Below, piece by piece: positions 29,086 through 59,313 of a DNA stretch of 64,000 nt. A program made the position numbers and the translations under genes. Source of the stretch: Gammaproteobacteria bacterium (GTDB lineage Bacteria > Pseudomonadota > Gammaproteobacteria > JAABTG01); NCBI GenBank assembly GCA_034522055.1, contig JAXHLS010000002.1:3057549-3121548 (forward strand), read 5' to 3'. Position 1 is the first letter of the stretch; every line of letters begins with the position of its first letter. The notes below the pieces were generated by a model. That model made no database searches, had not been told where the DNA came from, and saw only the letters and a program-made list of their open reading frames with translations.

Positions 29086-30939
29086 TCAGCTCACCACCAC
29101 TTTCCGGAACATCCCCGGCATGTGGTAGAGCAGGTGGCAGTGATAGGCCCAGCCGCCCATGGCGTCGGCGGTGACGAGGTAGCTGATGCGCGCGCCGGGC
29201 TGAACGATGACGGTGTGCTTGCGGGGGATGCGCCCGGGGTCCCCCGTCTCCAGGTCGCTCCACATGCCGTGGAGGTGGATGGGATGGTTCATCATGGTGT
29301 CGTTGATGAGGTTGATGCGCACCCGCTCGCCGAATTTGAGTCCCAGGGGTTCGGCATCGGCGAACTTGATGCCGTCCATGGACCACATGTAGCGGCTCAT
29401 GTTGCCCGTGAGGTGAAGGTCGATCTCCCGCCCCGGCTCCCGGGGATCGGGGGTGGCGCCGATATTGAACAGGTCGGCGTAGGTGAGCACGCGGCGGCCG
29501 TTGTCCCGCAGGCCCACGCCGGGGTCGTCCAGCCGGTATTGGGGGGCGTCGGCGCGCATGTCGATGTGGGGACCGTACTCGGTATCGGCGTGGACCACGG
29601 GGCGGCTACTGCCATAGCCGGCCGTGCCCGAGCCGATGGCGGGCCTGGCTTCCATGCCGCCCATGTCATGGCCCGAGTGGTCCATGCCACCCATGTCATG
29701 GCCCGAGTGGTCCATGGCCGGCATCCCGCCGTCGGCGGAGTCATTGGCACCCATGTCGTGCCCGGCATGGCCCATGGCCGCCATGTCCATGCCCATGTCG
29801 CCATGGGTGAGGATGGGTGCCGGGTCCATCTCCGGCACCTCGCCCGCCAGGGCCAGGTCCGGCGTCAGGGTGCCGCGGGCATAGCCCGAGCGGTCGATGG
29901 CCTGGGCGAAGACGGTATAGGGCCGGTCGTCCTGCGGTCTGACGATGACGTCATAGGTCTCGGCCACGCCGAGGCGCAGTTCGTCCACCGTCACGGGCTC
30001 GATGTTCTGGCCATCGGCGGCCACGACGGTCATCTCGAGCCCCGGGATCCGCAGGTCGAAGAAGGTCATGGCGGCGGCATTGATGATGCGCAGGCGCACC
30101 CGCTCGCCCCGGCGGAACAGCCCCTTCCAGCCCTCGGCGGGGGTGACGCCGTTCATGAGGAAGGTATAGGTGTAGCCGGTGACATCGGAGATGTCGCGGT
30201 CGGACATGCGCATGGTGTCCCACATGTCGCGCTCGGCGCGGTAGCCGGCCCAGCCCTTCTCACGGATCTCCGCCAGGGCATCGAAGATGGTGCGCTCGCG
30301 GAAGTTGTAGTAGTGGGAGAGCTTCTTGAGGGTGGCATAGATGTGGTTGGGATCCTCGTCGCTCCAGTCGGACAGCACCAGGGCGTAATCGCGGTCGCAG
30401 GCGAAGGGTTCGGGGCCCGCGGGGTCGATGATGATGGCGCCGTAGGACCCGGTCTGCTCGTGGAAGCCGGAGTGGCTGTGATACCAGTAGGTGCCCGATT
30501 GCTTCACCGGGAATTGGTAGGTGAAGGACTCCCCCGGGGGAATGCCCTCGAAACCGTCGCTGATGTGGGGCACTCCGTCCTGGGAACTTGGCAGGATGAG
30601 GCCATGCCAGTGGATGGAGGCGTCCTCGGCGAGGTGGTTGGTGACTTTCAGCGTCACCGTGTCGCCCTCGCGCCAGCGCAGCACGGGGGCGGGCACCGTG
30701 CCGTTGATGGCGGTGGCCTGGCGCTCAGCGCCCGTGAGGTTGATGGGGGTGGGGCTGTAGGTGAGGTCGAAACGGGTGCCCGAGAGCACCTGCTGGCGGC
30801 CGGGCGGGGTGGCGGCGGCACGGCCGGTGGCCGGGTTGATGCCGAGGCCGAGCAGGGCGCCGCCGGCGGCGAGTCCGGTGACGAAGCGGCGCCGGGAGGG
30901 CGAGAAGGCCCCGGGATGGGGCAGGGATATACGGGACAT
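29086..30939 (-). CDS. copA: Multicopper oxidase CopA (PcoA)
   Basis: The 617-residue periplasmic oxidase carries a Tat signal (SRRRFVTGLAAGGALLG) and all copper sites: HWHG, WYHSHSGFHEQTG, HPIHLHGMW and HCHLLYHMPGM. Between domains lies a Met/His stretch with near-perfect repeats of MDHSGHDMGG, typical of CopA/PcoA, which probably loads extra Cu(I). It oxidises Cu(I) to less harmful Cu(II) in the periplasm. It is the core gene of the operon running from 32559 down to 27921. Confidence 0.96.
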   Translation of the reverse strand: MSRISLPHPGAFSPSRRRFVTGLAAGGALLGLGINPATGRAAATPPGRQQVLSGTRFDLTYSPTPINLTGAERQATAINGTVPAPVLRWREGDTVTLKVTNHLAEDASIHWHGLILPSSQDGVPHISDGFEGIPPGESFTYQFPVKQSGTYWYHSHSGFHEQTGSYGAIIIDPAGPEPFACDRDYALVLSDWSDEDPNHIYATLKKLSHYYNFRERTIFDALAEIREKGWAGYRAERDMWDTMRMSDRDISDVTGYTYTFLMNGVTPAEGWKGLFRRGERVRLRIINAAAMTFFDLRIPGLEMTVVAADGQNIEPVTVDELRLGVAETYDVIVRPQDDRPYTVFAQAIDRSGYARGTLTPDLALAGEVPEMDPAPILTHGDMGMDMAAMGHAGHDMGANDSADGGMPAMDHSGHDMGGMDHSGHDMGGMEARPAIGSGTAGYGSSRPVVHADTEYGPHIDMRADAPQYRLDDPGVGLRDNGRRVLTYADLFNIGATPDPREPGREIDLHLTGNMSRYMWSMDGIKFADAEPLGLKFGERVRINLINDTMMNHPIHLHGMWSDLETGDPGRIPRKHTVIVQPGARISYLVTADAMGGWAYHCHLLYHMPGMFRKVVVS

Positions 30940-31370: not shown

Positions 31371-31877
31371 CTACTGCGCGTAGCCGGGACCCATCATGCC
31401 TCCCTGGCCGTCCCCCATGGGCCCACGCTGCTGTTGACCCATGGGCGGGCCGCCCATGCCGCCGGGGCCTTGCATGCCACCCATGCCGCCGCGGCGGTCC
31501 TGCCACGCGGGAGAGCGTCCCATATTGCCCTGGTACGGCATCTGACCGCGCTGGTCCTGCCAGGCGGATGGCCCGCCGCGGCGCTGCATCATCTCCTCAC
31601 GCCACCGCTCCATGTCCTGGTGCCGCTGTTGCCAGTCCGGTGACTGGCCGCGCCGCTGCTGCCACATGGGCGGCGCGTTCTCCGGGCCCTGTATGGAGCC
31701 GGGATAGCCGCGCATCATGCCGCGATGGTGCTCGCCGCCGGGCCCCATCATGGGCCCCATGCCTTGACCCATCATGGGTCCACCGTAGCCCTGACCCTGG
31801 CCGGGGCCCGGTTGGGCGAAGGCCAGCTGGGTGGTGAAGAGGAGCGCCGCGGCGCCGAGTAAGGGAATGAGTCTCAT
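31371..31877 (-). CDS. Secreted Met/Gln/Gly-rich protein
   Basis: The 168-residue product has a signal peptide (LIPLLGAAALLFTTQLAFA). The rest is low complexity: GPMMGQGMGPMMGPGGEHHR, MEPWW-free Gln/Arg-rich WQQR segments, and GMGGMQGPGGMGGPPMGQ. Twenty or so Met plus a few His suggest Cu(I)/Ag(I) binding in the periplasm. No named family is recognised. It is the second gene of the cop operon. Confidence 0.7.
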   Translation of the reverse strand: MRLIPLLGAAALLFTTQLAFAQPGPGQGQGYGGPMMGQGMGPMMGPGGEHHRGMMRGYPGSIQGPENAPPMWQQRRGQSPDWQQRHQDMERWREEMMQRRGGPSAWQDQRGQMPYQGNMGRSPAWQDRRGGMGGMQGPGGMGGPPMGQQQRGPMGDGQGGMMGPGYAQ

Positions 31878-32061: not shown

Positions 32062-32559
32062 TTACCACTGCGGGCACGCGGCCACCGTGAGCGTGCCGGC
32101 ACGCGTCTGCTGGGCGGGCGTGAGCACGGCATAGAGGTCACGGGTCGCCGTGTCCAGCTTGCGCATCTGCTCCAGGCCTTCCTCGTGGAAGGTGGCTCGC
32201 GGATCCGCTCCGGCGGTGCCGTCATAGCGCGTCTGGTGATGGGCGGCCATCAGGTCGCGGCCGTTGGCGACGGCATCGACGTAGGCATTCCAGGCGGGCT
32301 CCTGATCGGCGGTGATCGCGAGATCGGCCTTGATTTGCCCGAGCCTGGCTGTATCGAAGGCCAGCGGACCGCTGCGGTGCATCCAGCCGGTCCCGCCGTA
32401 GCCACCGTGCATGGTACCGGCGCCACCCATCATGCCGTGGTGGCCGCCGAAGCCATAACCCGGGCCGAAGCCGGCACCGGCGAAGACGCCGCTGGTGGCA
32501 CCGATGGCCAGTGCGGAGGCCACTGCGATGGCGAGCATACCCTTGGTCGTCTGTTTCAT
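32062..32559 (-). CDS. Periplasmic LTXXQ (Spy/CpxP-like) protein
   Basis: The ATG at 32557-32559 gives 165 residues. A signal peptide precedes a Gly/His/Met-rich stretch (GFGGHHGMMGGAGTMHGGYG). A helical body follows (LGQIKADLAITADQEPAWNA, YVDAVANGRDLMAAHHQTRY) and it ends in a LTPAQQ motif of the Spy/CpxP/ZraP family. These proteins act as periplasmic chaperones or metal-binding sensors. It is the first gene of the cop operon, divergent from copRS. Confidence 0.8.
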   Translation of the reverse strand: MKQTTKGMLAIAVASALAIGATSGVFAGAGFGPGYGFGGHHGMMGGAGTMHGGYGGTGWMHRSGPLAFDTARLGQIKADLAITADQEPAWNAYVDAVANGRDLMAAHHQTRYDGTAGADPRATFHEEGLEQMRKLDTATRDLYAVLTPAQQTRAGTLTVAACPQW

Positions 32560-32687
32560 GATTGTCTCCTTTTCAAGTGTTGCCTGGTTTACTCTGTTGT
32601 GGAGCCCCTGGCTGTTGTGGAGGCCCTGGGCTCGAGTGTCATTAGACGCCCCGCCGGTAAGCGGCATGTGTCAGTCCGTGGGTTTTT

Positions 32688-35941: not shown

Positions 35942-38365
<2,424 letters not shown>

Positions 38366-39937: not shown

Positions 39938-40549
39938 TCAGTGGTCATGGTTGTCGTGAACATGTTCGGCCGGTTCACCGTCGGTGGACTCCCCCTCATC
40001 ATCCGCGGCCAAGGCGCCTCCGTGAGCGTGGGCGTGACCGTCGTCCCCCGCCCGCGCCACCAGTTGCTCGTAGCCCGCCGCGTCGAGCGCCGGCAGGCGC
40101 CGGATGAAGGCTACCAGCTCCCACAGCTCGTCATTGCCATGGGTCGGGCCCCACGCCGGCATCCCGGTCATGCGAATGCCGTGCTTGATTATCCAGAACA
40201 GCTCGGCGGGACTGCGTTCCGCACCCCTGTCCGCGAGCCGCGGTGGCGCGGGGCTCATGTCCCGCGCGCCCACGAAGGGCTCGCGCCCGGGCGCGCCGTG
40301 GCAGCTCGCGCAGATCTCGTCGAAGGCTCGGGCGCCGGCCGTCACCGTGGCGTCCCCGGACAGGTCGGGGACGGTGATGGCCGCGGCCCGCCGCTCCACC
40401 GACTGCTGGCGGATGGTGCGCAGCAGCCAGCGCAGCGCGGCTGGCTCGTCGGTAGTGGCGGAGACTTCGGGGATGCCAGAGTAGGCGAGACCCACCACAG
40501 CGGCCGCGGCGAGGACGGTGACGAGGATGACGGCGGACAGAAGCTTCAT
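39938..40549 (-). CDS. Membrane-anchored c-type cytochrome with His-rich tail
   Basis: The 203-residue protein has an N-terminal helix (LSAVILVTVLAAAAVVGLAY), one haem motif in AFDEICASCHGAPGREP and an axial Met in RMTGMPAWGPTHGNDELWEL. The last 40 residues are rich in His and acidic residues (DDGHAHAHGG, AEHVHDNHDH) and could bind a divalent metal. Its start overlaps the adaptor stop by 4 bases, which ties it tightly to the RND pump genes. Confidence 0.88.
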   Translation of the reverse strand: MKLLSAVILVTVLAAAAVVGLAYSGIPEVSATTDEPAALRWLLRTIRQQSVERRAAAITVPDLSGDATVTAGARAFDEICASCHGAPGREPFVGARDMSPAPPRLADRGAERSPAELFWIIKHGIRMTGMPAWGPTHGNDELWELVAFIRRLPALDAAGYEQLVARAGDDGHAHAHGGALAADDEGESTDGEPAEHVHDNHDH

Positions 40550-41679
40550 ATCCTACCTCCGATTTTATGGGTAGCGGTATCATCTTGCCTGCCCGGGGAC
40601 TCGGCCTCAGCACCCGACTGCGTCGCCGGCGGCAGCACCACCTGCTCACCGGGCCGCAGCCCGCTAAGGACCTCCATGCGGCCATCGTGGCGCGCGGGGC
40701 CGGTGCGCACATAGCGGCGCAACGCGCTGCCATCGACCGCTACCAGTACATACTCCAGCTGACCCACCCGGCGCAGGGCCGACGCCGGCATGCTCACATG
40801 CTCTACCGTCCCCGCCTGAATGAGCAGGCGGCCGAACATGCCGGGATAGATCTCGGGCAGGGACGGCAGGCTGGTCTTGACCACGAAGGAACGGGAACCG
40901 GGATCGGCGGCAGGCACGATCATGTCGACGGTCGACGGGACGGTCAGGTCCAGGGCGTCGATGCGCACTTGCAGGCTCTCCCCCGGGGTCAACCGGGTGG
41001 CCAGGGTCTCGCGCACCTGCGCCTCCAGGCGCAGGGCCTCGGGATCGTAAAGGTGCAGCAGTGGGCTGCCGGGGCTCGCGGTGTCTCCCGGCTCCACCAA
41101 GCGGTGAATGATCCGGCCGTCGATGGGTGCACGCACGGTGGCATGGCTGCGTGCCGTTTCCGCCTCTCCCACCGCCTGGCGGCTGCGCTCCAGCTCCGCC
41201 TGCGCGGTCTTGAGGGCCGCCTCGGTGCGGTCCAGCTCCGCGGCGGCAGCGACTCCCCGCTCCGCCAGCTCTCTCACCCGCTCGAAGGTGGCACGCGCCT
41301 CTTCCAGGGTGGCCTGGGTGGCCGCCCGCGCCTGACGTGCCTGCTCGAGTCTGGCCGTGAGATCCCGGCGGTCCAACTCCACCAGCACATCGCCCTTCGT
41401 GACTCGGTCACCCTCTCTTACCGTTACGGCGATCACGGTGGAGAGTACCCGCGCCGATATCTGGGTCTGCTCCCGCGGGCGCAGTGTGCCCACCGCCTCC
41501 TCCACCAGGGGTACCCGGTGCAGTTGCACCTCGACCAGCGGGCCAGCGATGGGCCGTGGCGGAGCCGCGACGCGGCCGGTCGGTATCTTCTCCTCGAACA
41601 CCCCGGCCAGCAGGGCCATGAGGAACGCCAGCAGGATCAGGGCGCCGGCCGCGCCGGCAATGCGCAATGAAGCATTCAT
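40546..41679 (-). CDS. RND periplasmic adaptor subunit
   Basis: The 377-residue membrane-fusion protein has an N-terminal anchor (LILLAFLMALLAGVF). A lipoyl half follows (ARVLSTVIAVTVREGDRVTK), then a long coiled-coil hairpin (residues about 110-170, rich in Ala/Glu/Arg). The second lipoyl half (ARSHATVRAPIDGRIIHRLV) and a barrel domain (SMPASALRRVGQLEYVLVAV) complete it. It connects the next-door pump to an outer-membrane channel. No TolC gene is in this cluster, so it may share one. Confidence 0.9.
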   Translation of the reverse strand: MNASLRIAGAAGALILLAFLMALLAGVFEEKIPTGRVAAPPRPIAGPLVEVQLHRVPLVEEAVGTLRPREQTQISARVLSTVIAVTVREGDRVTKGDVLVELDRRDLTARLEQARQARAATQATLEEARATFERVRELAERGVAAAAELDRTEAALKTAQAELERSRQAVGEAETARSHATVRAPIDGRIIHRLVEPGDTASPGSPLLHLYDPEALRLEAQVRETLATRLTPGESLQVRIDALDLTVPSTVDMIVPAADPGSRSFVVKTSLPSLPEIYPGMFGRLLIQAGTVEHVSMPASALRRVGQLEYVLVAVDGSALRRYVRTGPARHDGRMEVLSGLRPGEQVVLPPATQSGAEAESPGRQDDTATHKIGGRI

Positions 41680-44600
41680 GCAACGGGACTCCTCTGGCCG
41701 GTGGACTGATGCGCCTCGCTCTCGCCGTAGACCAGGAAATAGGCCACGGGGACCACCGCCAGGGTGAAGACGGTGGAGGCGCTGATACCGAATATCACGG
41801 CCCAGGCCAGGCCGCTGAAGATGGGATCCAGGGTAATGACGACGTTGCCCAGCAGGGTGGTCACGGCGGTGAGCACCACCGGGCGCATGCGCACGGCGCC
41901 GGCGGTGAGCAGGGCGTCGCGCAATGCCGCACCGCGGCCGAGTTCGAGCTGAACGAACTGCACCAGCACCAGGGAGTTGCGGACCACGATGCCGGCCAGC
42001 GCGATCATGCCGATCATGGCGGTGGCGGTGAACAGCGCCGGGTTGGGTTGACCGTCGATGATCCGGTCACCGAGCTGATTGAGCAGCCAAAAACCGGGCA
42101 TTATTCCGATGACGGTCAGGGGGATGGCCAGCATGATGATGAGGGACAGGGATGGCAGGCCGGTCTGGATCATCAGCACCACGAAGATCCCCACCAGCGC
42201 CACCCCGAAGGCGATGCCGAGATCGCGGAACACGCGCAGGGTGATTTGCCATTCACCTTCGCCACCCCACTCGACATTCACGCCCGCCGGCAGAGACCAG
42301 GGGATGCCACCTCCCGGATCGATAAAGCTGCGCTCGTCGAGGGGCCGGGGGGCCTCGGCCGCCGTCGCCGGGGCATCCTGGTCCGCCGCCAGGTCGGCGA
42401 TGATCTCTGCGGGGGTGCGTCCGGCGGCATCGGCGTAGACGTAGGCCACCGGGCGTAGATTTTTGTGGTAGATGGTCTTGTCCACCTGGTGCTCGGCGAA
42501 GTGCCCGAGTTCACGTAGTGCCGCCAGTCGCGGGGGCGCGTCGCCCATGGGCGGGTCGTCCGCGGTGCCCGCCGTCGCCACGTGGAGCGCTCCCAGCTCG
42601 CCCGGGGCATTGCGCCGGCCCATGGGCAGGCGCAGCTCGATGGGCAGGGGGTTCGCCTCCGAGGGCAGCTGCAGGTGGCCGGCGACCTGGCCGGCGGTGG
42701 CCAGGGCCACGGTGGCGGCGGCCTCCCGGGTGGTTACACCCGCGAGCGCCGCTTTCTCCTTGTCGGCCACGTAGACCAGCTTGCGCTGGTCGTCTTCCAC
42801 GGAGGTGTCCACGTCCACCACGTAGGGCTCGCGTTCGAGGCGTGTGGCAAGGGTGCGTGCGGCGTGTCGGAGGGCGGCGTAGTCGGTGGTCTCGTGGCCG
42901 TAGATCTCGGCGGTCAGAGTGGAGATCACCGGTGGACCGGGTGGCACCTCCACCAGCTTGATGAGGACATGGTGCTCCCGTCCGAGTGCCGCGAGTTCCC
43001 GGCGCAGCCGCAGGACCACCTCGTGGGACTGCTGGCTGCGGGCGTGACGCCCGGCGAGGGTGACCCTCAGTTCGCCGAGGTGGGGTGCCTCGCGGAGATA
43101 GTAGTGGCGTACCAGGCCGTTGAAGTCCATGGGGGAAGGCACCCCCGCGAAGCCGGAGATGCTCTCCACCTCCGGCACCGAGGCCAGCAGCCTGCCTGCC
43201 GCCGCCACCACACTCTGGGTGCGTTCCAGGGTGGTGCCTTCCGGGGCGTCCACCAGTACCTGGAACTCGTCCTTGTTGTCGAAGGGCAGGAGCTTGAGGG
43301 GCACCGCGCGCAACAGCGGCAGGGCGGCGGCGAGCAGGAACAGCAGGGCCACCACCGCCAGGAAGGCCCAAGCCCGCCGCCGGCTGGCGATCAGGGGTGC
43401 CACCAGCACCGCATAGACGCGGTAGAGAGCGGTCCGGGTGATGTCATAGTCTGCCTCTGGGCGCACGTGGCGCAGCATCCGGTAGGCCAGCCAGGGGGTG
43501 AACAGGAAGGCCACCAGGGTGCTCGCCGTGACGGCTACCGGCACGTTGAAGGCCATCGGTGCCATGTAGGGACCCATCATGCCGGTGATGAAAAACATCG
43601 GGGCAAAGGCCAGGATCACCGCGACGGTGGACAGCAGCAGGGCACTGCGCACCTCCAGCATGGCATCCACCACCGCATCGCGGGCCGAGCGCCCGCCCAT
43701 GCGCAGGTAGCGGCTGATGTTGTCCACGCCGGTGATGGGATCATCCACCAGCAGGCCCAGGGCAAGGATCAACGCGAAGAGGGTGACGCGGTTGATGGTA
43801 TAGCCGGTCAGCAGGTCGAGCAGCAGGGTGATGCCGTAGCTTACGGGTACGGCCACCGCCACCACTACCGCCTGCCGCCAGCCGAGGAATACGGCGATGA
43901 ACACCACCACCGTCAGCATCGCCACGGCCAGGCTGGACACGAGATCGTCCACCTTCTGGTCGGCGGTCTCACCGTAATTGCGGATGATCTGGAAGTGGAC
44001 CTCGGGTGGAAAAAGCTCGCGATGGAGCCGTTCCAGGGTCTCCAGGGTCTCCTCGGCGACCCACACCGCATTTGACCCCTTGCGTTTGGCCACCGCCAGG
44101 AAGACGGCCGGGTAGGGGCCGTCGACTCTGCCCTCGGTGGTTGAGGCGGGCCCGAAGTCCGTCCAGGTATAACTCGTGGGCTCCGCCGGACCGTCATGGA
44201 CGCGGGCGACGTCTCGCAGCTGGACGGGAGCACCGTCCAGCACATTCACCACCAGTCGCTCCAGGGCCGCGGCATCGGCGATGAAGGTGCCCGCCTCGAC
44301 GACGATGGCGTGGTCCTTACGACTCACCACGCCGCCGGATTGCTGAAAGTTGGCGGCCTCGATGGCGTCGGCCACCTGGAGTGGGGTGGTCCGGCGAGAT
44401 GCCAGTGCTGCCGGGTCGAGTTCCACCCGGATACGGCGCGGATTGCCACCGGTGACAGTGACCCGGTTGGTGCTGTCGATGGCCTTGAGGCGGTGGGCCA
44501 TTTCCTCGGCGAGGCGGCGCAGGGTGTAGCCGCCGACCCGCTCCGGGTCGTCACTCCACAGCGATGCCACCACGATGGGGACGTCGTCCACCTCCAGCGG

Positions 44601-45023
44601 CTTCACCACCCAGGACCGTACCACTGCCGGAACCTGGTCCCGGCTCGATTCCAGCTTGGAGAATACCTTGACCAGCGAGTCCTCGCGGTCCTCGCCCACG
44701 TAGAAGCGTACGGTCACGATGGCGCGGCCGGGCTGCGACATGGAGTAGACGTGCTCGACACCGTCGATCTGGGACAGCAGCTTCTCCAGTGGCGTGCTCA
44801 CCTGGCGCTCCACCTGGCGGGCCCCAAGCCCTGGTGCCGACACCAGTACGTCCGCCAGCGGGACGATGATCTGCGGCTCCTCCTCCCGGGGGGTGATGGC
44901 CAGCGCCACCAGGCCGGCCGCGATGAGACCTATTACGCCCAGCATCACCAGCGGACCGTTCATGGCGCCGGCGATCAAGCGTCCCCAGGGACCGCTTTGG
45001 GGCGTATGGGGGTTTTCGTTCAT
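41676..45023 (-). CDS. RND efflux permease, AcrB/HAE-like
   Basis: The 1115-residue permease has 12 helices and two big periplasmic loops. Motifs are LAITPREEEPQIIVPLADVL and GARQVERQVSTPLEKLLSQI near the start. Helix four reads LALGLLVDDPITGVDNISRY, where the LLVDDPI form differs from both the CusA and CzcA signatures. This places the protein nearer hydrophobe/amphiphile RND pumps than known metal pumps. The substrate is unknown. The adaptor overlaps its end by 4 bases. Upstream lies the beta-propeller gene. Confidence 0.92.
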   Translation of the reverse strand: MNENPHTPQSGPWGRLIAGAMNGPLVMLGVIGLIAAGLVALAITPREEEPQIIVPLADVLVSAPGLGARQVERQVSTPLEKLLSQIDGVEHVYSMSQPGRAIVTVRFYVGEDREDSLVKVFSKLESSRDQVPAVVRSWVVKPLEVDDVPIVVASLWSDDPERVGGYTLRRLAEEMAHRLKAIDSTNRVTVTGGNPRRIRVELDPAALASRRTTPLQVADAIEAANFQQSGGVVSRKDHAIVVEAGTFIADAAALERLVVNVLDGAPVQLRDVARVHDGPAEPTSYTWTDFGPASTTEGRVDGPYPAVFLAVAKRKGSNAVWVAEETLETLERLHRELFPPEVHFQIIRNYGETADQKVDDLVSSLAVAMLTVVVFIAVFLGWRQAVVVAVAVPVSYGITLLLDLLTGYTINRVTLFALILALGLLVDDPITGVDNISRYLRMGGRSARDAVVDAMLEVRSALLLSTVAVILAFAPMFFITGMMGPYMAPMAFNVPVAVTASTLVAFLFTPWLAYRMLRHVRPEADYDITRTALYRVYAVLVAPLIASRRRAWAFLAVVALLFLLAAALPLLRAVPLKLLPFDNKDEFQVLVDAPEGTTLERTQSVVAAAGRLLASVPEVESISGFAGVPSPMDFNGLVRHYYLREAPHLGELRVTLAGRHARSQQSHEVVLRLRRELAALGREHHVLIKLVEVPPGPPVISTLTAEIYGHETTDYAALRHAARTLATRLEREPYVVDVDTSVEDDQRKLVYVADKEKAALAGVTTREAAATVALATAGQVAGHLQLPSEANPLPIELRLPMGRRNAPGELGALHVATAGTADDPPMGDAPPRLAALRELGHFAEHQVDKTIYHKNLRPVAYVYADAAGRTPAEIIADLAADQDAPATAAEAPRPLDERSFIDPGGGIPWSLPAGVNVEWGGEGEWQITLRVFRDLGIAFGVALVGIFVVLMIQTGLPSLSLIIMLAIPLTVIGIMPGFWLLNQLGDRIIDGQPNPALFTATAMIGMIALAGIVVRNSLVLVQFVQLELGRGAALRDALLTAGAVRMRPVVLTAVTTLLGNVVITLDPIFSGLAWAVIFGISASTVFTLAVVPVAYFLVYGESEAHQSTGQRSPVA

Positions 45024-45080
45024 GAACGGATCAGGCGGAAGGCCGCGAGAGAAGGGGGCGCGCCCGGGCGTGCCCCTGGG

Positions 45081-46046
45081 TCAGCGGTTGCCAGGGACGG
45101 CTACCCAGAACGGCTTGGCGCCGGTCGCCATGCGCCGGACCACTTTGTGGGTGGTGGTATCCACCACGGCGATGACGTCCTCGCCACTCACCGCCACGTA
45201 GAGGTGCTCGCCCCGCGCGTCGGCCCGCAGGCCATGAGGTCCGGAGCCCACCTCCACCTGGCCTGTGCGCTCCCCCTTGGCGGGGTCGATCACATTCACC
45301 ACCGCGCCGGCGATGCCGCTGACGAAGACCTGGCTGCCGTCCGGCAGGACGTCGACGCCGTAGTGGGGCGGGCTCAGGGGCACGCGCGCCCGCACCGCGC
45401 CGGACTCGATGTCCACCACGTCGAGCATCTGGCTGGCGATGCCCGCCACGTACAGGGTTCCATCGTCGGCGCTGATATCCACGTTGTGGGGTGCGCCTTC
45501 AACGGGGATCTGGCGGGTTTTCTCCATCGTCTCCACGTCGATTACCGCGATGCCGTCGCCGCCCTGGAGGGCCACGTAGGCCGTCTTCCCGTCGCTGGAG
45601 AAGGTGGTGTTGTGGGGCATTTGGCCCACCGGCAGGGTCTTTACCACCGTCAGGCTCTCCATGTCGATGAAGCTCAGGGTCCCACCGCCCTCGTCGGCGG
45701 CGATGGCGATGCCGCCGTCGGGAGAGATCTTGATTCCCTTGGGCGTCTTGCCCACGGGGATTCGTTTGAGCAGCTCGCCGCTGTGGGCGTCGTAGGCGTA
45801 GATGCGGTCCTCGCCGCTGCTGGTGGCCAGCACCCGCTTGCCGTCCGGGCTGACCGTTATGTAGGTCATCGCCTTGCCGGCGTCCCATCGGGCACCGTCC
45901 GGCAGGCGTACGACGGCGTTTTCACCCTGCAGCGTAACGAAGAAATGATCATGTGCCCCGGTGGCTTGCCCGGCACTCACGAGGGCGGGTGGGAAGAGGG
46001 AGATCAGCAGAAAGCCAACCAAGAATTGCAATGAATGAATACGCAT
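45081..46046 (-). CDS. Secreted YVTN/YncE-type beta-propeller protein
   Basis: The 321-residue protein (ATG 46044-46046) has a signal peptide ending LVSAG. About seven repeats follow, each with a strand ending near VSPDGKRVLATS, ISPDGGIAIAADEGGG, SSDGKTAYVALQGGDG or ISADDGTLYVAGIAS. This is the YncE/40-residue YVTN propeller. Such proteins bind ligands or partner proteins in the periplasm, and some sit near cytochromes. Here it lies directly upstream of the RND permease (57 bases) and may be its periplasmic partner. No enzyme motif is seen. Confidence 0.85.
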   Translation of the reverse strand: MRIHSLQFLVGFLLISLFPPALVSAGQATGAHDHFFVTLQGENAVVRLPDGARWDAGKAMTYITVSPDGKRVLATSSGEDRIYAYDAHSGELLKRIPVGKTPKGIKISPDGGIAIAADEGGGTLSFIDMESLTVVKTLPVGQMPHNTTFSSDGKTAYVALQGGDGIAVIDVETMEKTRQIPVEGAPHNVDISADDGTLYVAGIASQMLDVVDIESGAVRARVPLSPPHYGVDVLPDGSQVFVSGIAGAVVNVIDPAKGERTGQVEVGSGPHGLRADARGEHLYVAVSGEDVIAVVDTTTHKVVRRMATGAKPFWVAVPGNR

Positions 46047-46144
46047 GGCGAATCCTCGTCGGTGGCAGGCGCTCGACAGAGCGAAGGACTGGCGGCGGCG
46101 GACAAGGCCGTGGGTCTGCCTTGCCACCGCCGCGGCAGAAGGAG

Positions 46145-46711
46145 TTAGCGGAGCATCAGGCGCTCCAGCATGGCCTCCATCTTGATCATCCGGACTTCCA
46201 GGAGATCGATGCGGTTCATGAGCTTGCGATGCTTCTTGTGCATGCCGCCGTGCATGCCCTTGCCCATCATGCCCATGCCGTCCTGGCCGCCGTCCATGCC
46301 TTGGCTCATCATGCCCATGCCGCCCTCCTGGCCGCCGTGCATGCCTTTGCCCATCATGCCCATGCCGCCACCCTGGCCGCCGTGCATGCCTTTGCCCATC
46401 ATGCCCATGCCGCCGCCCTGGCCGTCTTGCATGCCCTTGCCCATCATGCCCATGCCGCCGCCTTGGTTGCCTTGCATGCCCTTGCCCATCATGCCCATGC
46501 CGTCGCCGCCGCGGCCCATCATCTTCATCTTCTCGGTCGGATCCCCGTCCTGTGCCTGCCCCCTCGCCATCTGGCGGCCTTCATCGGTGGAAGAGGTCGA
46601 TGCCGCGCTGGCGGGTGCCTCCTCCGGATGGTGTTCCTCCTCGGCCATCACCGGTGGCAGGGTGAGCATGAGGGCGGACAGGGTCAGGATCAGCGTCTTT
46701 CTCATATACAT
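46145..46711 (-). CDS. Periplasmic Met-rich repeat protein
   Basis: The 188-residue protein has a signal peptide ending VMA. After an acidic stretch, residues 71-157 hold six copies of a 15-residue unit (GMGMMGKGMHGGQGG), with the fifth and sixth shortened. A helical C-terminal end follows (LMNRIDLLEVRMIKMEAMLE). Each unit carries four Met and often a His, a strong Cu(I)/Ag(I)-binding pattern. The start at 46709-46711 has a gaggag ribosome site. It is the first gene after the histidine kinase and has an 18-bp palindrome in its promoter region. It has the place and possibly the role that ZraP has next to ZraSR. Confidence 0.82.
   Translation of the reverse strand: MYMRKTLILTLSALMLTLPPVMAEEEHHPEEAPASAASTSSTDEGRQMARGQAQDGDPTEKMKMMGRGGDGMGMMGKGMQGNQGGGMGMMGKGMQDGQGGGMGMMGKGMHGGQGGGMGMMGKGMHGGQEGGMGMMSQGMDGGQDGMGMMGKGMHGGMHKKHRKLMNRIDLLEVRMIKMEAMLERLMLR
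46241..46501 (-). repeat. 45-bp tandem coding repeats
   Basis: Six units of about 45 bp encode the 15-residue Met-rich repeats. The central four are very alike at DNA level, differing mainly in the His/Gln codon. This indicates recent expansion by slippage or unequal recombination, and the copy number may vary between strains. Confidence 0.85.
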
Positions 46712-47026
46712 GGTCTTTCTCCTCTTCATGGCTTGAACCAGCCGCCGGATCTCTCGGCGGTTGAAAGGCACCAGGCCTGGTGCCCCCTGGAACTGGCGCC
46801 GGGCCTGTGCCCGGCCCCCGGTGCCGCGTTGCCGGTTGCAATGTGGTGCCGCAGGGTCCCGCTGTAGGGTTGCGGAGTGGAAAACCGTGAGGGTTCCCCA
46901 CCGGGGCTCAGTCAGAGGCAGAGAAGGCAGTTTTCATGCCAGCCTTGGGAAGGACTGTCGCCCCTCCAATGAGGCCGCTGGCGCGGCCGGCGCGAGCGTG
47001 CCGGCGTAACGTTCCGATGAATTTCT
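46712..47026. other. Regulatory gap upstream of the Met-repeat gene
   Basis: About 315 bases without a gene separate the Met-repeat gene from the kinase gene, both on the minus strand. The gap is unusually rich in short GC palindromes, including the 18-bp perfect one listed separately. It should contain the promoter of the downstream genes. Confidence 0.55.
46767..46784. promoter_or_regulatory. 18-bp perfect palindrome, possible enhancer or operator
   Basis: GGCACCAGGCCTGGTGCC reads the same on both strands and lies 56 bases upstream of the Met-repeat start codon. NtrC-type regulators bind palindromes upstream of their targets, and a gene of that type lies next to the kinase. Binding is inferred, not shown. 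Confidence 0.45.
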
Positions 47027-48460
47027 TTAAGAATCGTTCAACGGGGTCGTGGCGGTTGCCGCCAGCGGCAGGCGCAGGATAACCCGGGTGCCCTCGCGGG
47101 CATCGCTGGCCATGATGACCTGGCCGCCGTGTTCCTCCACCACCCGCTTGACCAGCACCAGGCCAAGTCCTGAACCCCGGGGCTTGGTGGTACAGAAGGG
47201 TTCGAAGACCCGCTCCAGGACCTCCGGTGGTATGGGATCCCCGGGGTTGGCCACCTCCACCATCGCTATGGTGCCGTCACGGTAGTGGCGGACATGGATA
47301 CGCGAGCCGGGCGGGCTCGCTTCCACGGCATTCTTCAGCAGGTTGAGGAGGACCTGGTGCATCTTGGCCTTGTCCAGTCGCATCGCAGGGCAATGGTTGC
47401 ACTTTGTGCGGTCGACGGTGATGGCTTTCTTGCGCAGCAGGGGCTGCTGTTGGCGGATCACATGCGCTATCAGCAACTCGACGTCCACCTGCTCCATCGA
47501 CAGCTGCAAGGGCCGCACGTAGTCCAGGGTCTCCGACAGGAGGGCATCCAGTCGATCCACCTCGCCCGATACCAGGGCGACCCTGCGACGCTCCCGTTCC
47601 GGGATCGCCCCGTAATCCTTGAGGCCCCCCAAGGCCAGCTTGATGGATGCGAGGGGATTGCGCATCTCGTGGGCGAGCATGGACGCGGTCTGACCGATGG
47701 CGGCGAGGCGGGTATTTCGCACCATCGCCTCGTGGGCCAGATCAAGCTCCCGGGTGCGCTGGCGTACCTGGGCCTCGAGGTCACGCTCGTACATGCGGCC
47801 AATGCCCCGCAGTGCCATATGTCCGAGGAGGGCGATGAGCACGAAGGTGATCAGCAATACCAGATCCAGATGCCAGTGCAGATCGCCGAGAAACTGTACC
47901 AGGGTGTTCTGATCACTGGCGACGCCGAGCAGCCAGGGGTGTTCGCTTGATGTACCGGCGCCAGCCTGCTGGAGCCAGATGAGCGTGGTGAGGCCGCCTT
48001 CAGACACGGTCACGGCCGGCCCCTGAACCAACCGCAACGGTCCCTGGCCCTCGATCCCCGAGGAGGCACCAGCCAGCCAGCTGGAATCGATGGGAACCGG
48101 GAGGTGAGTCATTCCGCGGCTGTCCGCTACCAGCAGGCGACGGGCACGGTCGACAACGAAGAGCCGATAGCCAAGGCTGCCGAAGCGCTCCAGGGTCCGC
48201 TGGAGGGGGTCCCGGGAGGGGGTGCCCGTGGAATCCAGTACGGGGCGAAGATAGGGCAACAGATTCTCCGCGATGTCGCGGTTGTGGTGAATGCCGTGGG
48301 ACAGCAGGCGCTCCTGCAGGTAACCGAGGACATGTGCGGTGCCGGTGAGGCCGACGCCGGCCACTATCAGTCCCATTATCAAAAGGCTCAGCCATGTTAC
48401 CTTGGTCGGCGTCCATCGCCGGGGGCTGCCATCGGCCTTCGGTTCAGTTTTTGTCTGCAT
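47027..48460 (-). CDS. Sensor histidine kinase, ZraS/NtrB-like
   Basis: The 477-residue kinase has two membrane helices (WLSLLIMGLIVAGVGLTGTA near residue 24, and LVLLITFVLIALLGHMAL near 195). A 150-residue periplasmic sensor domain lies between them. The phospho-acceptor box is SMLAHEMRNPLASIKLALGG. The ATP site has NLLKNAVEASPPGS and CTTKPRGSGLGLVLVKRVVE. In the ATP-binding domain, near residue 350, sits an unusual CNHC pair (DRTKCNHCPAMRLDKAK). It is divergent from its response regulator, with 82 bases between them. Confidence 0.9.
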   Translation of the reverse strand: MQTKTEPKADGSPRRWTPTKVTWLSLLIMGLIVAGVGLTGTAHVLGYLQERLLSHGIHHNRDIAENLLPYLRPVLDSTGTPSRDPLQRTLERFGSLGYRLFVVDRARRLLVADSRGMTHLPVPIDSSWLAGASSGIEGQGPLRLVQGPAVTVSEGGLTTLIWLQQAGAGTSSEHPWLLGVASDQNTLVQFLGDLHWHLDLVLLITFVLIALLGHMALRGIGRMYERDLEAQVRQRTRELDLAHEAMVRNTRLAAIGQTASMLAHEMRNPLASIKLALGGLKDYGAIPERERRRVALVSGEVDRLDALLSETLDYVRPLQLSMEQVDVELLIAHVIRQQQPLLRKKAITVDRTKCNHCPAMRLDKAKMHQVLLNLLKNAVEASPPGSRIHVRHYRDGTIAMVEVANPGDPIPPEVLERVFEPFCTTKPRGSGLGLVLVKRVVEEHGGQVIMASDAREGTRVILRLPLAATATTPLNDS

Positions 48461-48542
48461 GGGCCTTGCCGGGGCACTGTCGTTTCGGTTCCGATAGGGC
48501 GAACGTTATCATAGGTTTTGATTTGCCCACCGGATAGCAACC

Positions 48543-49898
48543 ATGGCCTATATCCTCATCATCGAAGACGATCCGGTATTCGGCGAACTCCTGGTCATGC
48601 ATCTTGAGGATCGCGGCCATGAATCTCGAGTCGCGGGCGACATTGGAGAAGCGCGGGAGTTGCTTTCCCAGGGCACTCCGGATGCCGTGCTTCTGGATCA
48701 CCAACTGCCCGATGGCTACGGGCTTGACCTGCTTGGGGAGCTCGGGGCGCCGAACGATGGGCCGCCGGTCATCATGATCACCGGTGTTACCGACAATGCC
48801 CTCGCCATCGAGGCGATACGTCACGGTGCGTATGACTTCATTCGCAAGCCGATGGACGACCTCGAACTCGAAACCACCCTGGGGAATGCCCTGCGCCATC
48901 ACCGCTTGTCCCGCCAAGTCTCGGCCATCACCTCCACCGAAGACCATCGAGTAGATATCAACGAGATCGTGGGTAGGAGTTCGGCGATCCTGGAAGTGTG
49001 CAAGACCGTTGGGGCAGTGGCTGCCCGCGTGGCACCGGTTCTCATCACGGGGGAGACCGGCACGGGCAAGGAGGTGGTAGCCCGCGCCATCCATCACCAC
49101 TCGGGGCGCCAGGGCCTGTTCCTGCCCCTCAACTGTTCGGTGCTGGCCGAGGGTGTCCTGGAGAGCGAGCTGTTTGGCCACGAGCGCGGCAGCTTTACCG
49201 GCGCGCTGGGGCGCAGGGAGGGCCGTTTCGAACTCGCTGCCGGCGGTACCTTGTTCCTCGATGAGGTAGGCGAGATGCCGGCGTCGCTGCAGGCCAAACT
49301 CCTGCGGGTGCTCCAGGAAGGCACTTTCGAGCGGGTGGGCGGTGGTCAGGTCCTGCATTCCGACGCCCGCGTCATCGCCGCGACCCATCGTGACCTGGAG
49401 GCCATGGTGCGCGACGGCACCTTTCGGGAAGATCTCTACTACCGCCTTAACGTGGTGTCCGTGCACTTGCCGCCGCTGCGCGAGCGGATGGCGGACCTGC
49501 CGATCCTGATCGAGCACCTGCTATACAAGATCAATGCCCGCCAACACACCGCGGTCCGACACACTGCCGAGGGCACCTGGCGTCTGCTCAATGACTACTC
49601 ATGGCCAGGCAACGTGCGCGAGCTGGAGAATGCCCTTACTCGCGCCGCGGTGCTGGCGCGGGGGGACACCCTGACACCGGAACTCTTTTCCCTGTCCGAT
49701 GACGTGGCCGCCACTGTGGTCGACGCAGGAGATGATCAGCCGGTCCCGCCGCGTCTCATCACCCTCGATGAACTGGAGCATGAGCACGTCGTCGCGGTGC
49801 TGAACCATGTGCGCTGGCACAAGGGCAGGGCCTGCGAGATCCTGGGCATCTCGCGCCCCGCCCTCGATCGCAAGATCGAGCGCTACGGGCTTGCTTGA
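48543..49898 (+). CDS. Sigma-54-dependent response regulator, ZraR/NtrC-like
   Basis: The 451-residue protein has a receiver domain (ILIIEDDPVFGELLVMHLED; phospho-Asp in DAVLLDHQLPDGYGLDLL). An AAA+ domain follows with Walker A GETGTGKE, the loop ESELFGHERGSFTGAL, Walker B GGTLFLDEVGEM and YSWPGNVRELENAL. A Fis-type helix-turn-helix closes it (GRACEILGISRPALDRKIER). The sigma-54 contact loop reads GSFTGA where GAFTGA is normal. It should activate sigma-54 promoters after phosphorylation by the divergent kinase. Confidence 0.93.
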   Translation: MAYILIIEDDPVFGELLVMHLEDRGHESRVAGDIGEARELLSQGTPDAVLLDHQLPDGYGLDLLGELGAPNDGPPVIMITGVTDNALAIEAIRHGAYDFIRKPMDDLELETTLGNALRHHRLSRQVSAITSTEDHRVDINEIVGRSSAILEVCKTVGAVAARVAPVLITGETGTGKEVVARAIHHHSGRQGLFLPLNCSVLAEGVLESELFGHERGSFTGALGRREGRFELAAGGTLFLDEVGEMPASLQAKLLRVLQEGTFERVGGGQVLHSDARVIAATHRDLEAMVRDGTFREDLYYRLNVVSVHLPPLRERMADLPILIEHLLYKINARQHTAVRHTAEGTWRLLNDYSWPGNVRELENALTRAAVLARGDTLTPELFSLSDDVAATVVDAGDDQPVPPRLITLDELEHEHVVAVLNHVRWHKGRACEILGISRPALDRKIERYGLA

Positions 49899-50103
49899 GA
49901 CGGTGTGCCCGTTCAGCGCCGCGCGTATACTAGCTTGCGGGGCTAGCCGTCACGGCAAACGATAGACTCGCTTCAGCCCGCACCTGGATGCCGATGACCC
50001 TTTTTGTGGTGCGAGAGCCGGATATGATTGCTTCTTCACATGAAGTCCCTCAGGGAACCGCTCATTTGATCTGAAGGTCATTGTTCGAGTCCTCACAATC
50101 ACC

Positions 50104-50262
50104 ATGAGGACCGGGATGAAAGCAGTCCGATTCTCCGGCAACGGCGGGGCGGGGGCGACGCTCGCCATGCAGCTGCACAATGGCATCGACTTCGACGTTC
50201 CCGAGGGCGCCGCCCCCGCGATGGTTTGCGGTGTGCTCGACGCGCTGCTCACCCGGACATGA
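50104..50262 (+). pseudogene. IS66 TnpA (orfA) fragment
   Basis: The 52-residue frame (TGMKAVRFSGNGGAGATLAM, then FDVPEGAAPAMVCGVLDALL) resembles only the C-terminal end of IS66 orfA proteins, so the N-terminal part is lost. It overlaps the TnpB start by 4 bases (ATGA), the normal arrangement of IS66. Confidence 0.55.
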
Positions 50263-50938
50263 TGCGCCCCACCGATCCCGGGCTCGCCGTCTATCTCTGC
50301 CGCGCGCCCGTGGACTTCCGCAAGTCCATCGACGGGCTGGCCGCCGTGGTGGAGGCCGAACTCGACCTCGACGCCTTCTCTTCGGCCCTGTTCGTGTTCA
50401 TCAACCGCAAGCGCGACAAGCTCAAGTGTCTCTACTGGGAGCCCAGCGGCCTCCGCCTGTGGTCATGTGGTTTGCCCGCGGCGGACCGCCCGTCCAAAAG
50501 GTACTCCTCTACCATTACGCCCTGTCACGTAGCGGCGCCGTGCCCCACGAGCTGCTCGAGGGCTTCACCGGGACCCTGCAGACCGACGGCTATGCCGGCG
50601 CCGCCGCCCGGCACCTCATCGGTGTCTGCTGTTGTACCTATGCCCGATGCAAGTTCGACGAGGCCAGCACCGTACCGCCTGGAGTGGAATGGGACGCACG
50701 CAGTGCGTCCGTAGGGGGCGCGCCACGGATGGCGCGCATCAGGGCCCACGGCAAGGGCGCCAAGGCCAAGACCAGCCGCGCCCATCACGAGACCCACGTC
50801 CAGGCTGTGCTCACCCAACTGCGCGCCTGGCTTGATACCGCATTACCGCAAGTGCCCCCTGGGACCGCCACCGGGCTAGCGCTTGGCTACCTCGACCGCT
50901 TACAGCAATTCTGCGTCCGTACGCGTCTAAGCGACTGA
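50259..50938 (+). pseudogene. IS66 TnpB fused to TnpC remnants, frameshifted
   Basis: The TnpB start reads DPGLAVYLCRAPVDFRKSID and GLAAVVEAELDLDAFSSALF, with FVFINRKRDKLKCLYW. After about 65 residues it breaks into another frame with part of the TnpC (DDE) transposase: YHYALSRSGAVPHELLEGFT, GTLQTDGYAG and CTYARCKFDEA. The 3' end of TnpC, with the IDNN and GRKN motifs, is missing. Confidence 0.75.
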
Positions 50939-51098: not shown

Positions 51099-54260
<3,162 letters not shown>

Positions 54261-58707: not shown

Positions 58708-59313
58708 TTATCCTGACAAAACAACGACCGTCAATCGGTGTTTGATGGGCTGCTTCGCTTTTCTTGGTGACGCCTTGAGCACCACGCCCTGTTCGGTCCT
58801 GGTTGAGGGTCTTCTGGGTGCAAGCATGTCGCCGCGCGTACACGTCGAGTCTACCGTCCCGGCCCAGGGCGTAGACGTTGTAGGCCTCCTTTCGTGGCCC
58901 CTCCATGTCCGGCGAGCCATGGGCATGCCCGGTACGGCCAGGCCGTGGATGTCGGGCCGTGCCGCCAGCATGCCTTGGATGACGTCGGTGGGCACGTGGC
59001 CCTCCACCACGTAGCCATCCACATAGGCCGTGTGACGGGACTGCAGGCGGCGGGGGATCCCGGCCTCGGCCTTGATGGGCTCGAGGTCCTGGACATCGCG
59101 GGCGTCCACGGTGAAGCCGTTGGCCTCGAGGTGCTCGACCCACTTGCTGCAGCAGTCGCAGGTGGGGCTCTTGTAGACCACCACCTCGGCGGCGGCGCCG
59201 TGGCGGGAGGTGAGGGCGAGGCCGGTGGCTACGGCGGCCAGCGCCAGCAGGCCTGATACCAGCAGGATTCGTGGCAGGGCCCGGGATGAAGTCTTCTTCG
59301 TCATGAAGTCCAT
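58708..59313 (-). pseudogene. DUF411 metal-binding protein with a late frameshift
   Basis: The frame from 59313 encodes a signal anchor (ILLVSGLLALAAVATGLAL). A DUF411 domain follows: VVVYKSPTCDCCSKWVEHLE, IPRRLQSRHTAYVDGYVVEG and HVPTDVIQGMLAARPDIHGL. At PGMPM a missing G (ATGGCTC where ATGGGCTC is expected) moves the frame. The correct ending (GSPDMEGPRKEAYNVYALGR, DGRLDVYARR) is readable in the next frame. The CDCC pair and most of the domain remain, so a truncated product could still bind Cu(I). A sequence error is also possible. Confidence 0.75.

Follow-up and report, generated by a model that had tools for sequence, protein, structure and literature searches.

A methionine-repeat protein in a gammaproteobacterial copper island as a candidate periplasmic copper buffer

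Architecture of the methionine-repeat protein

The window that we analyzed, a stretch of 64,000 nucleotides from a gammaproteobacterial genome, carries on its minus strand a gene for a protein of 188 amino acids (46145-46711), hereafter the Met-repeat protein. Its ATG lies at position 46711 or 46705, a few bases downstream of an AGGAG motif resembling a ribosome-binding site, and start and motif region are both kept in two further copies of the gene, at loci L006 and L007 of the one same-genus genome (G001). Tandem Repeats Finder detects at 46244-46507 an array with a period of 45 and 5.9 copies (90% matches, score 388), the top score among its 16 rows for the window. Upon translation, this array resolves into six tandem units with GMGMM[GS][KQ]GM cores (46235-46501, minus strand), spaced by 15, 15, 15, 15 and 14 residues and holding four methionines each. 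A previous sequence-only reading had recognized six 15-residue methionine-rich repeats at 46241-46501, four of them nearly identical in DNA and together offering about two dozen methionine ligands. Number and approximate length of the repeats agree with ours, and the span is accurate to a few bases, our unit windows covering 46501 to 46235 on what we identify as the minus strand; the near-identity holds roughly, as units 1-4 have pairwise 38-43 of 45 bases in common, and the 96-residue repeat zone contains 28 methionines.

The protein consists of a Sec-type signal peptide, an acidic linker, the six units, and a C-terminal helix. The signal peptide (MRKTLILTLSALMLTLPPVMA, 46643-46705, minus strand) was called by eye and is near-identical in L006 and L007, and the AlphaFold model places a helix at residues 2-15 in this region; the protein is very probably exported. 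Its mature part of 165 residues includes 34 Met, 46 Gly, 7 His and not a single Cys, with only 3 of the His in the repeat zone. An AlphaFold2 model computed from a three-row alignment has a mean pLDDT of 53.9. Values fall below 50 for the greater part of linker and repeats, and residues 154-185 form a C-terminal helix whose block means are mostly 84-89. This amphipathic helix (KKHRKLMNRIDLLEVRMIKMEAMLERLMLR, 46148-46237, minus strand) is identical in L006. In four distinct helices of relatives, the hydrophobic fraction at heptad positions a and d reaches 0.84, above that of column shuffles (p 0.0046), with shuffle p values for single helices of 0.108 in the window, 0.27 in G199, 0.013 in G266 and 0.001 in G088; taken singly, the window helix thus does not exceed its shuffles. 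The helix is likely to form a coiled coil and probably oligomerizes the protein.

No Pfam or NCBIfam family matched the Met-repeat protein at E values up to 10, a range within which Pfam gave neither the ZraP/LTXXQ profile (PF07813) nor a DUF305 domain, and a sequence search of the PDB returned nothing at E up to 1. Likewise, tblastn against plasmids with the window protein and its G199 counterpart as queries found no match, in a search where low-complexity filtering may hide matches.

Genomic neighborhood

The gene lies within a copper island. Immediately downstream is a YVTN-type beta-propeller gene (45081-46046, minus strand, by domain search), 95% identical in L006, where it also directly follows the Met-repeat gene. 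Domain and family searches then identify an RND efflux permease (41676-45023), an HlyD/CusB-type adaptor (40546-41679, domain search only) and a copper-type P1B ATPase with YHS and HMBD domains (35942-38365), all on the minus strand, as are a CopA multicopper oxidase (29086-30939, TIGR01480 above cut-off) and, on the other side, a CusA/CzcA-family RND permease (51099-54248, TIGR00914 above cut-off) accompanied by an adaptor and an outer-membrane channel. The island also has CopB and two cytochromes c, with chromate genes farther off.

Copper genes were seen at three of the seven loci read, namely the window, L006 and L028. The order at L006 is copA, copB, cytochrome c, DUF411, Met-repeat gene and propeller, the cytochrome c and DUF411 genes being assigned by Pfam, whereas copA and copB were recognized solely by reading the translation. 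At L028, in G199, the Met-repeat gene, a distant relative, sits between genes for MerR and an HMBD ATPase and genes for SHOCT, DUF411 and multicopper oxidase proteins. The sequence of L007 spans just 4 kb. Two-component genes and an LTXXQ gene are seen at L038 and L039, where Pfam covered a single protein; at L038 the LTXXQ gene precedes the Met-repeat gene. Reading of the frames around the G266 gene (L029) revealed no copper gene.

This neighborhood bears on the idea that the repeats act as a sacrificial sink, scavenging hypochlorous acid or other periplasmic oxidants and being recycled by methionine sulfoxide reductase. The very high methionine content would suit such a role, a methionine-cycling system of this kind, MrpX/YedYZ, has been described (PMC4623255), and an antioxidant function is possible because MsrP-like enzymes occur elsewhere in the genome, in the form of an Oxidored_molyb protein that is MsrP-like by our reading. 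However, this MsrP-like gene is on another contig, a Pfam search of 20 window proteins revealed no methionine sulfoxide reductase, adjacent or otherwise, and the nearest conserved neighbors are copper genes. MrpX, which we compared by description, is likewise a periplasmic methionine-rich peptide (PMC4623255), but it goes with sigF/nrsF and yedYZ, whereas the Met-repeat gene accompanies copper genes and a sigma54 activator. We consider the sacrificial role improbable.

Several other features of the region deserve mention. A further Met/Gly-rich frame with a signal-like start (MRLIPLLGAAALLFTTQLAFAQ..., GGPMMGQGMGPMMGPGG) occupies 31374-31877 (minus strand) and has a relative at L006 (11346-12170), so that the island would encode several methionine-rich exported proteins. 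Within CopA, a 30-bp repeat (29651-29716; 2.2 copies at 97%) encodes MDHSGHDMGG units, a stretch present in a longer, different version in the L006 CopA frame. Frames at 50180-50938 (plus strand), between the regulator described below and the CusA-type system, look like the remnant of an IS66-type transposase, and the product of 58708-59313 (minus strand) resembles the L006 DUF411 protein except towards the end, where it differs in a way suggestive of a frameshift.

Regulatory context

Upstream of the Met-repeat gene, on the same strand, is a sensor histidine kinase gene (47027-48460, minus strand), followed by that of an NtrC-type response regulator (48543-49898, plus strand) with Sigma54_activat (1.4e-65), Response_reg and Fis-type HTH (HTH_8) Pfam domains. 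Both are conserved in L007 (90% and 89% identical, respectively), where the sigma54 activator adjoins the Met-repeat gene in an identical arrangement. The earlier description of these genes as ZraSR-like is right in that an NtrC-family pair with a sigma54 activator is adjacent, but in NCBIfam the pair fits AtoS and AtoC best; ZraS comes second for the kinase and ZraR seventh for the regulator, and none of these models reaches its cut-off (ZraS 166.7 bits against 479; ZraR 325.3 against 760), which leaves the pair outside ZraSR as these models define it.

The same reading regarded the protein as a methionine-based counterpart of ZraP. The zraP gene is sigma54-dependent, and the likeness, a metal-related protein that is exported and encoded next to a two-component pair of sigma54 type, holds loosely for regulation; by contrast, the Met-repeat protein lacks an LTXXQ match and the island encodes a separate LTXXQ-family protein with a Met/His/Gly-rich N-terminal part (32062-32667, minus strand; PF07813, 1.6e-10), which appears to be its actual candidate of Spy/CpxP/ZraP type. 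The question is whether the Met-repeat protein could nonetheless be a ZraP-, CpxP- or Spy-like accessory of the adjacent system, binding metal and tuning the kinase without storage. The regulator-kinase-Met gene order kept in the window and L007, the helical C-terminus and the LTXXQ proteins encoded in the same or related clusters (window, L038) would fit such a function, which we nevertheless judge unlikely given that no Pfam domain, LTXXQ or other, is found in the protein and that the L006 copy lies in its copA-copB cluster without this kinase.

A candidate sigma54 -24/-12 element, TGGCAT-N5-CTGC (46927-46941, minus strand), lies 230 nt before the ATG. It mismatches at 2 of 10 positions, and sites of this quality occurred by chance in 97 of 1214 stretches of 315 nt (8%). 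The pattern TGGCAT-N5-[CA]TGC recurs in all three genus copies, 225 nt (L006) and 218 nt (L007) before the start, an agreement that is not independent because the three loci are related; the upstream DNA of L006 is otherwise unlike that of the window, similarity beginning about at the element. No sigma70-like promoter was detected in the 3.7 kb scanned (45000-48700), and rpoN is present in the genome. These data suggest that the gene is probably induced through sigma54. In all three genus copies, the leader of about 200 nt (46712-46926, minus strand, in the window) contains a CCGCC...GGCGG hairpin just 5' of the ribosome-binding site; its fold z-scores are mixed (-1.34, -0.01 and -3.01), so we do not claim it as a feature, and Rfam had no hit in 44000-50000.

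Distribution and variation among relatives

A search of 56 relatives at E 0.01 matched three genomes: the window's own, G001 with its two copies, and G040, a borderline case whose frame is exported and Met/Gly/Gln-rich and has no C-terminal helix. A scan of genome contigs recovered the same two copies as in G001 in the MAG Thiotrichales bacterium S21.Bin127. A profile of the C-terminal helix, run against 369 genomes of the class, matched 11 at E 0.01, and after reading of the frames six of them were kept as sharing the architecture (G000, G001, G199, G266, G088 and G211), including the same-genus genome and members of three other genera. The remaining five were dropped, four after reading (G111, G115, G311 and G351) and one, G073 (L035), for lack of a frame. 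Among 398 genomes drawn from the phylum, the own genome alone was genuine in both searches that we ran. Matches discarded as antisense, unrelated or non-Met-rich frames were, besides the four of the class, G413, G476, G523 and G111 in the first phylum search, G381, G405, G413, G523, G633 and G643 in the second, and G013 with a later profile; G246 (L012) was dropped for internal stops alone, and a second match in the own genome (E 0.391, one stop) was also set aside. With so few genuine matches across class and phylum, the distribution of the family is, on these searches, patchy. Literature searches, including exact peptide strings, yielded no published description of it among the matches listed.

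The links between genera differ in strength. The helix profile contained rows from G199 and G266, and the unbiased evidence for these two therefore comes from a single-sequence search (E 7e-5 and 3e-6, respectively); the GMMGKGM core is found again in G199. G088 and G211 scored weakly with the first helix profile (E 0.001 and 7e-4), their later strong scores coming from a profile that contained both sequences, and the resemblance of their helices may be convergent.

Unit number and unit length vary. The genus copies have six cores in the window, five in L006 and at least six in L007, which ends at a contig edge, with core spacings of 14-15, 13-14 and 11-14 residues, respectively. In genus g87, a 27-bp unit of identical consensus is present in 9.6 copies in one sister species and in 6.6 in the other, the G199 array has 3.4 copies of 42 bp, and G266 retains the helix with its units nearly gone. 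These counts rest on one genome per species, and the assemblies of G001 and G211 are fragmented, a condition in which repeats can collapse. The suggestion that copy number is changeable is borne out to the extent that unit counts differ among close relatives. Concerted evolution of the units is unsupported, as core similarity is 0.798 within the window gene and 0.832 between window and L006; cores being not clearly more alike within than between genes, we see no sign of a fresh expansion of the window array. Such variability in number and length, together with the near loss of units beside a retained helix in G266, might indicate a low-complexity expansion of little function, in which an exported protein tolerates a GC-rich array prone to slippage. 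The recurrence of the core in G199 and the conservation of signal peptide, helix and upstream element argue against this explanation, which seems to us very unlikely.

Discussion

We consider it fairly probable that the Met-repeat protein is an exported, largely disordered periplasmic buffer of Cu(I) and probably Ag(I). This copper-buffer reading is partly supported by the methionine-rich, cysteine-free composition and by the copper neighbors in the window and in two relatives. The protein would work like SilE/PcoE or CopM, yet matches no known family in Pfam, NCBIfam or the PDB. SilE and PcoE, periplasmic sponges for Ag(I) and Cu(I), are similarly exported, and their genes accompany RND and copper-oxidase genes. 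They have Met/His repeats and a disordered apo-form, a state that the low pLDDT may indicate for the Met-repeat protein as well, and SilE folds upon binding six Ag(I) (PMC5008109). However, SilE uses the motifs MxxHxxxxxHxxMxx and HxxMxxxHxxMxx and contains ten His, whereas the units described here are built of Met and Gly, with 3 His in the whole repeat zone, and are followed by a C-terminal helix; homology was judged via the Pfam, NCBIfam and PDB searches only. CopM of Synechocystis (23 Met, 8 His, Cu(I) KD ~3.7e-16) is also periplasmic and methionine-rich, and its gene adjoins a two-component system (PMC4335983), but it has two DUF305 domains. CopM binds about one copper per monomer, and PcoE retained one copper after purification (PMC4335983). 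The disordered N-terminus of CopB/PcoB is a comparable His/Met-rich segment needed for copper efflux (PMC12509749), although it forms part of an outer-membrane barrel protein, whereas the Met-repeat protein is free-standing.

In the mechanism that we propose for copper buffering, the kinase would sense periplasmic copper and activate the NtrC-type regulator, which would in turn drive transcription of the Met-repeat gene from the candidate sigma54 promoter. Once exported, the protein would assemble through its C-terminal helix into a coiled-coil oligomer gathering several repeat tails, and thioether sulfurs of several units would wrap each Cu(I), so that buffering capacity may grow with unit number. 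We only infer such scaling, because CopM and PcoE carry about one copper despite their many methionines. Bound copper might finally be handed on, with the copper oxidase and the RND pumps as possible recipients.

Methionine-rich copper and silver sponges have so far been known one by one. As a broader and doubtful proposal, the proteins found here in several genera of one class might form an undescribed family of coiled-coil-anchored methionine sponges whose capacity is set by repeat number, with lineages tuning periplasmic copper buffering by gain and loss of repeats under a copper-sensing sigma54 two-component switch. The copper systems CusRS and CopRS are of OmpR type and, if true, NtrC-type sigma54 control of the Met-repeat gene would be unusual beside them. 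The differences in unit number between sister species would offer natural length variants with which to test ligand number against capacity and tolerance.
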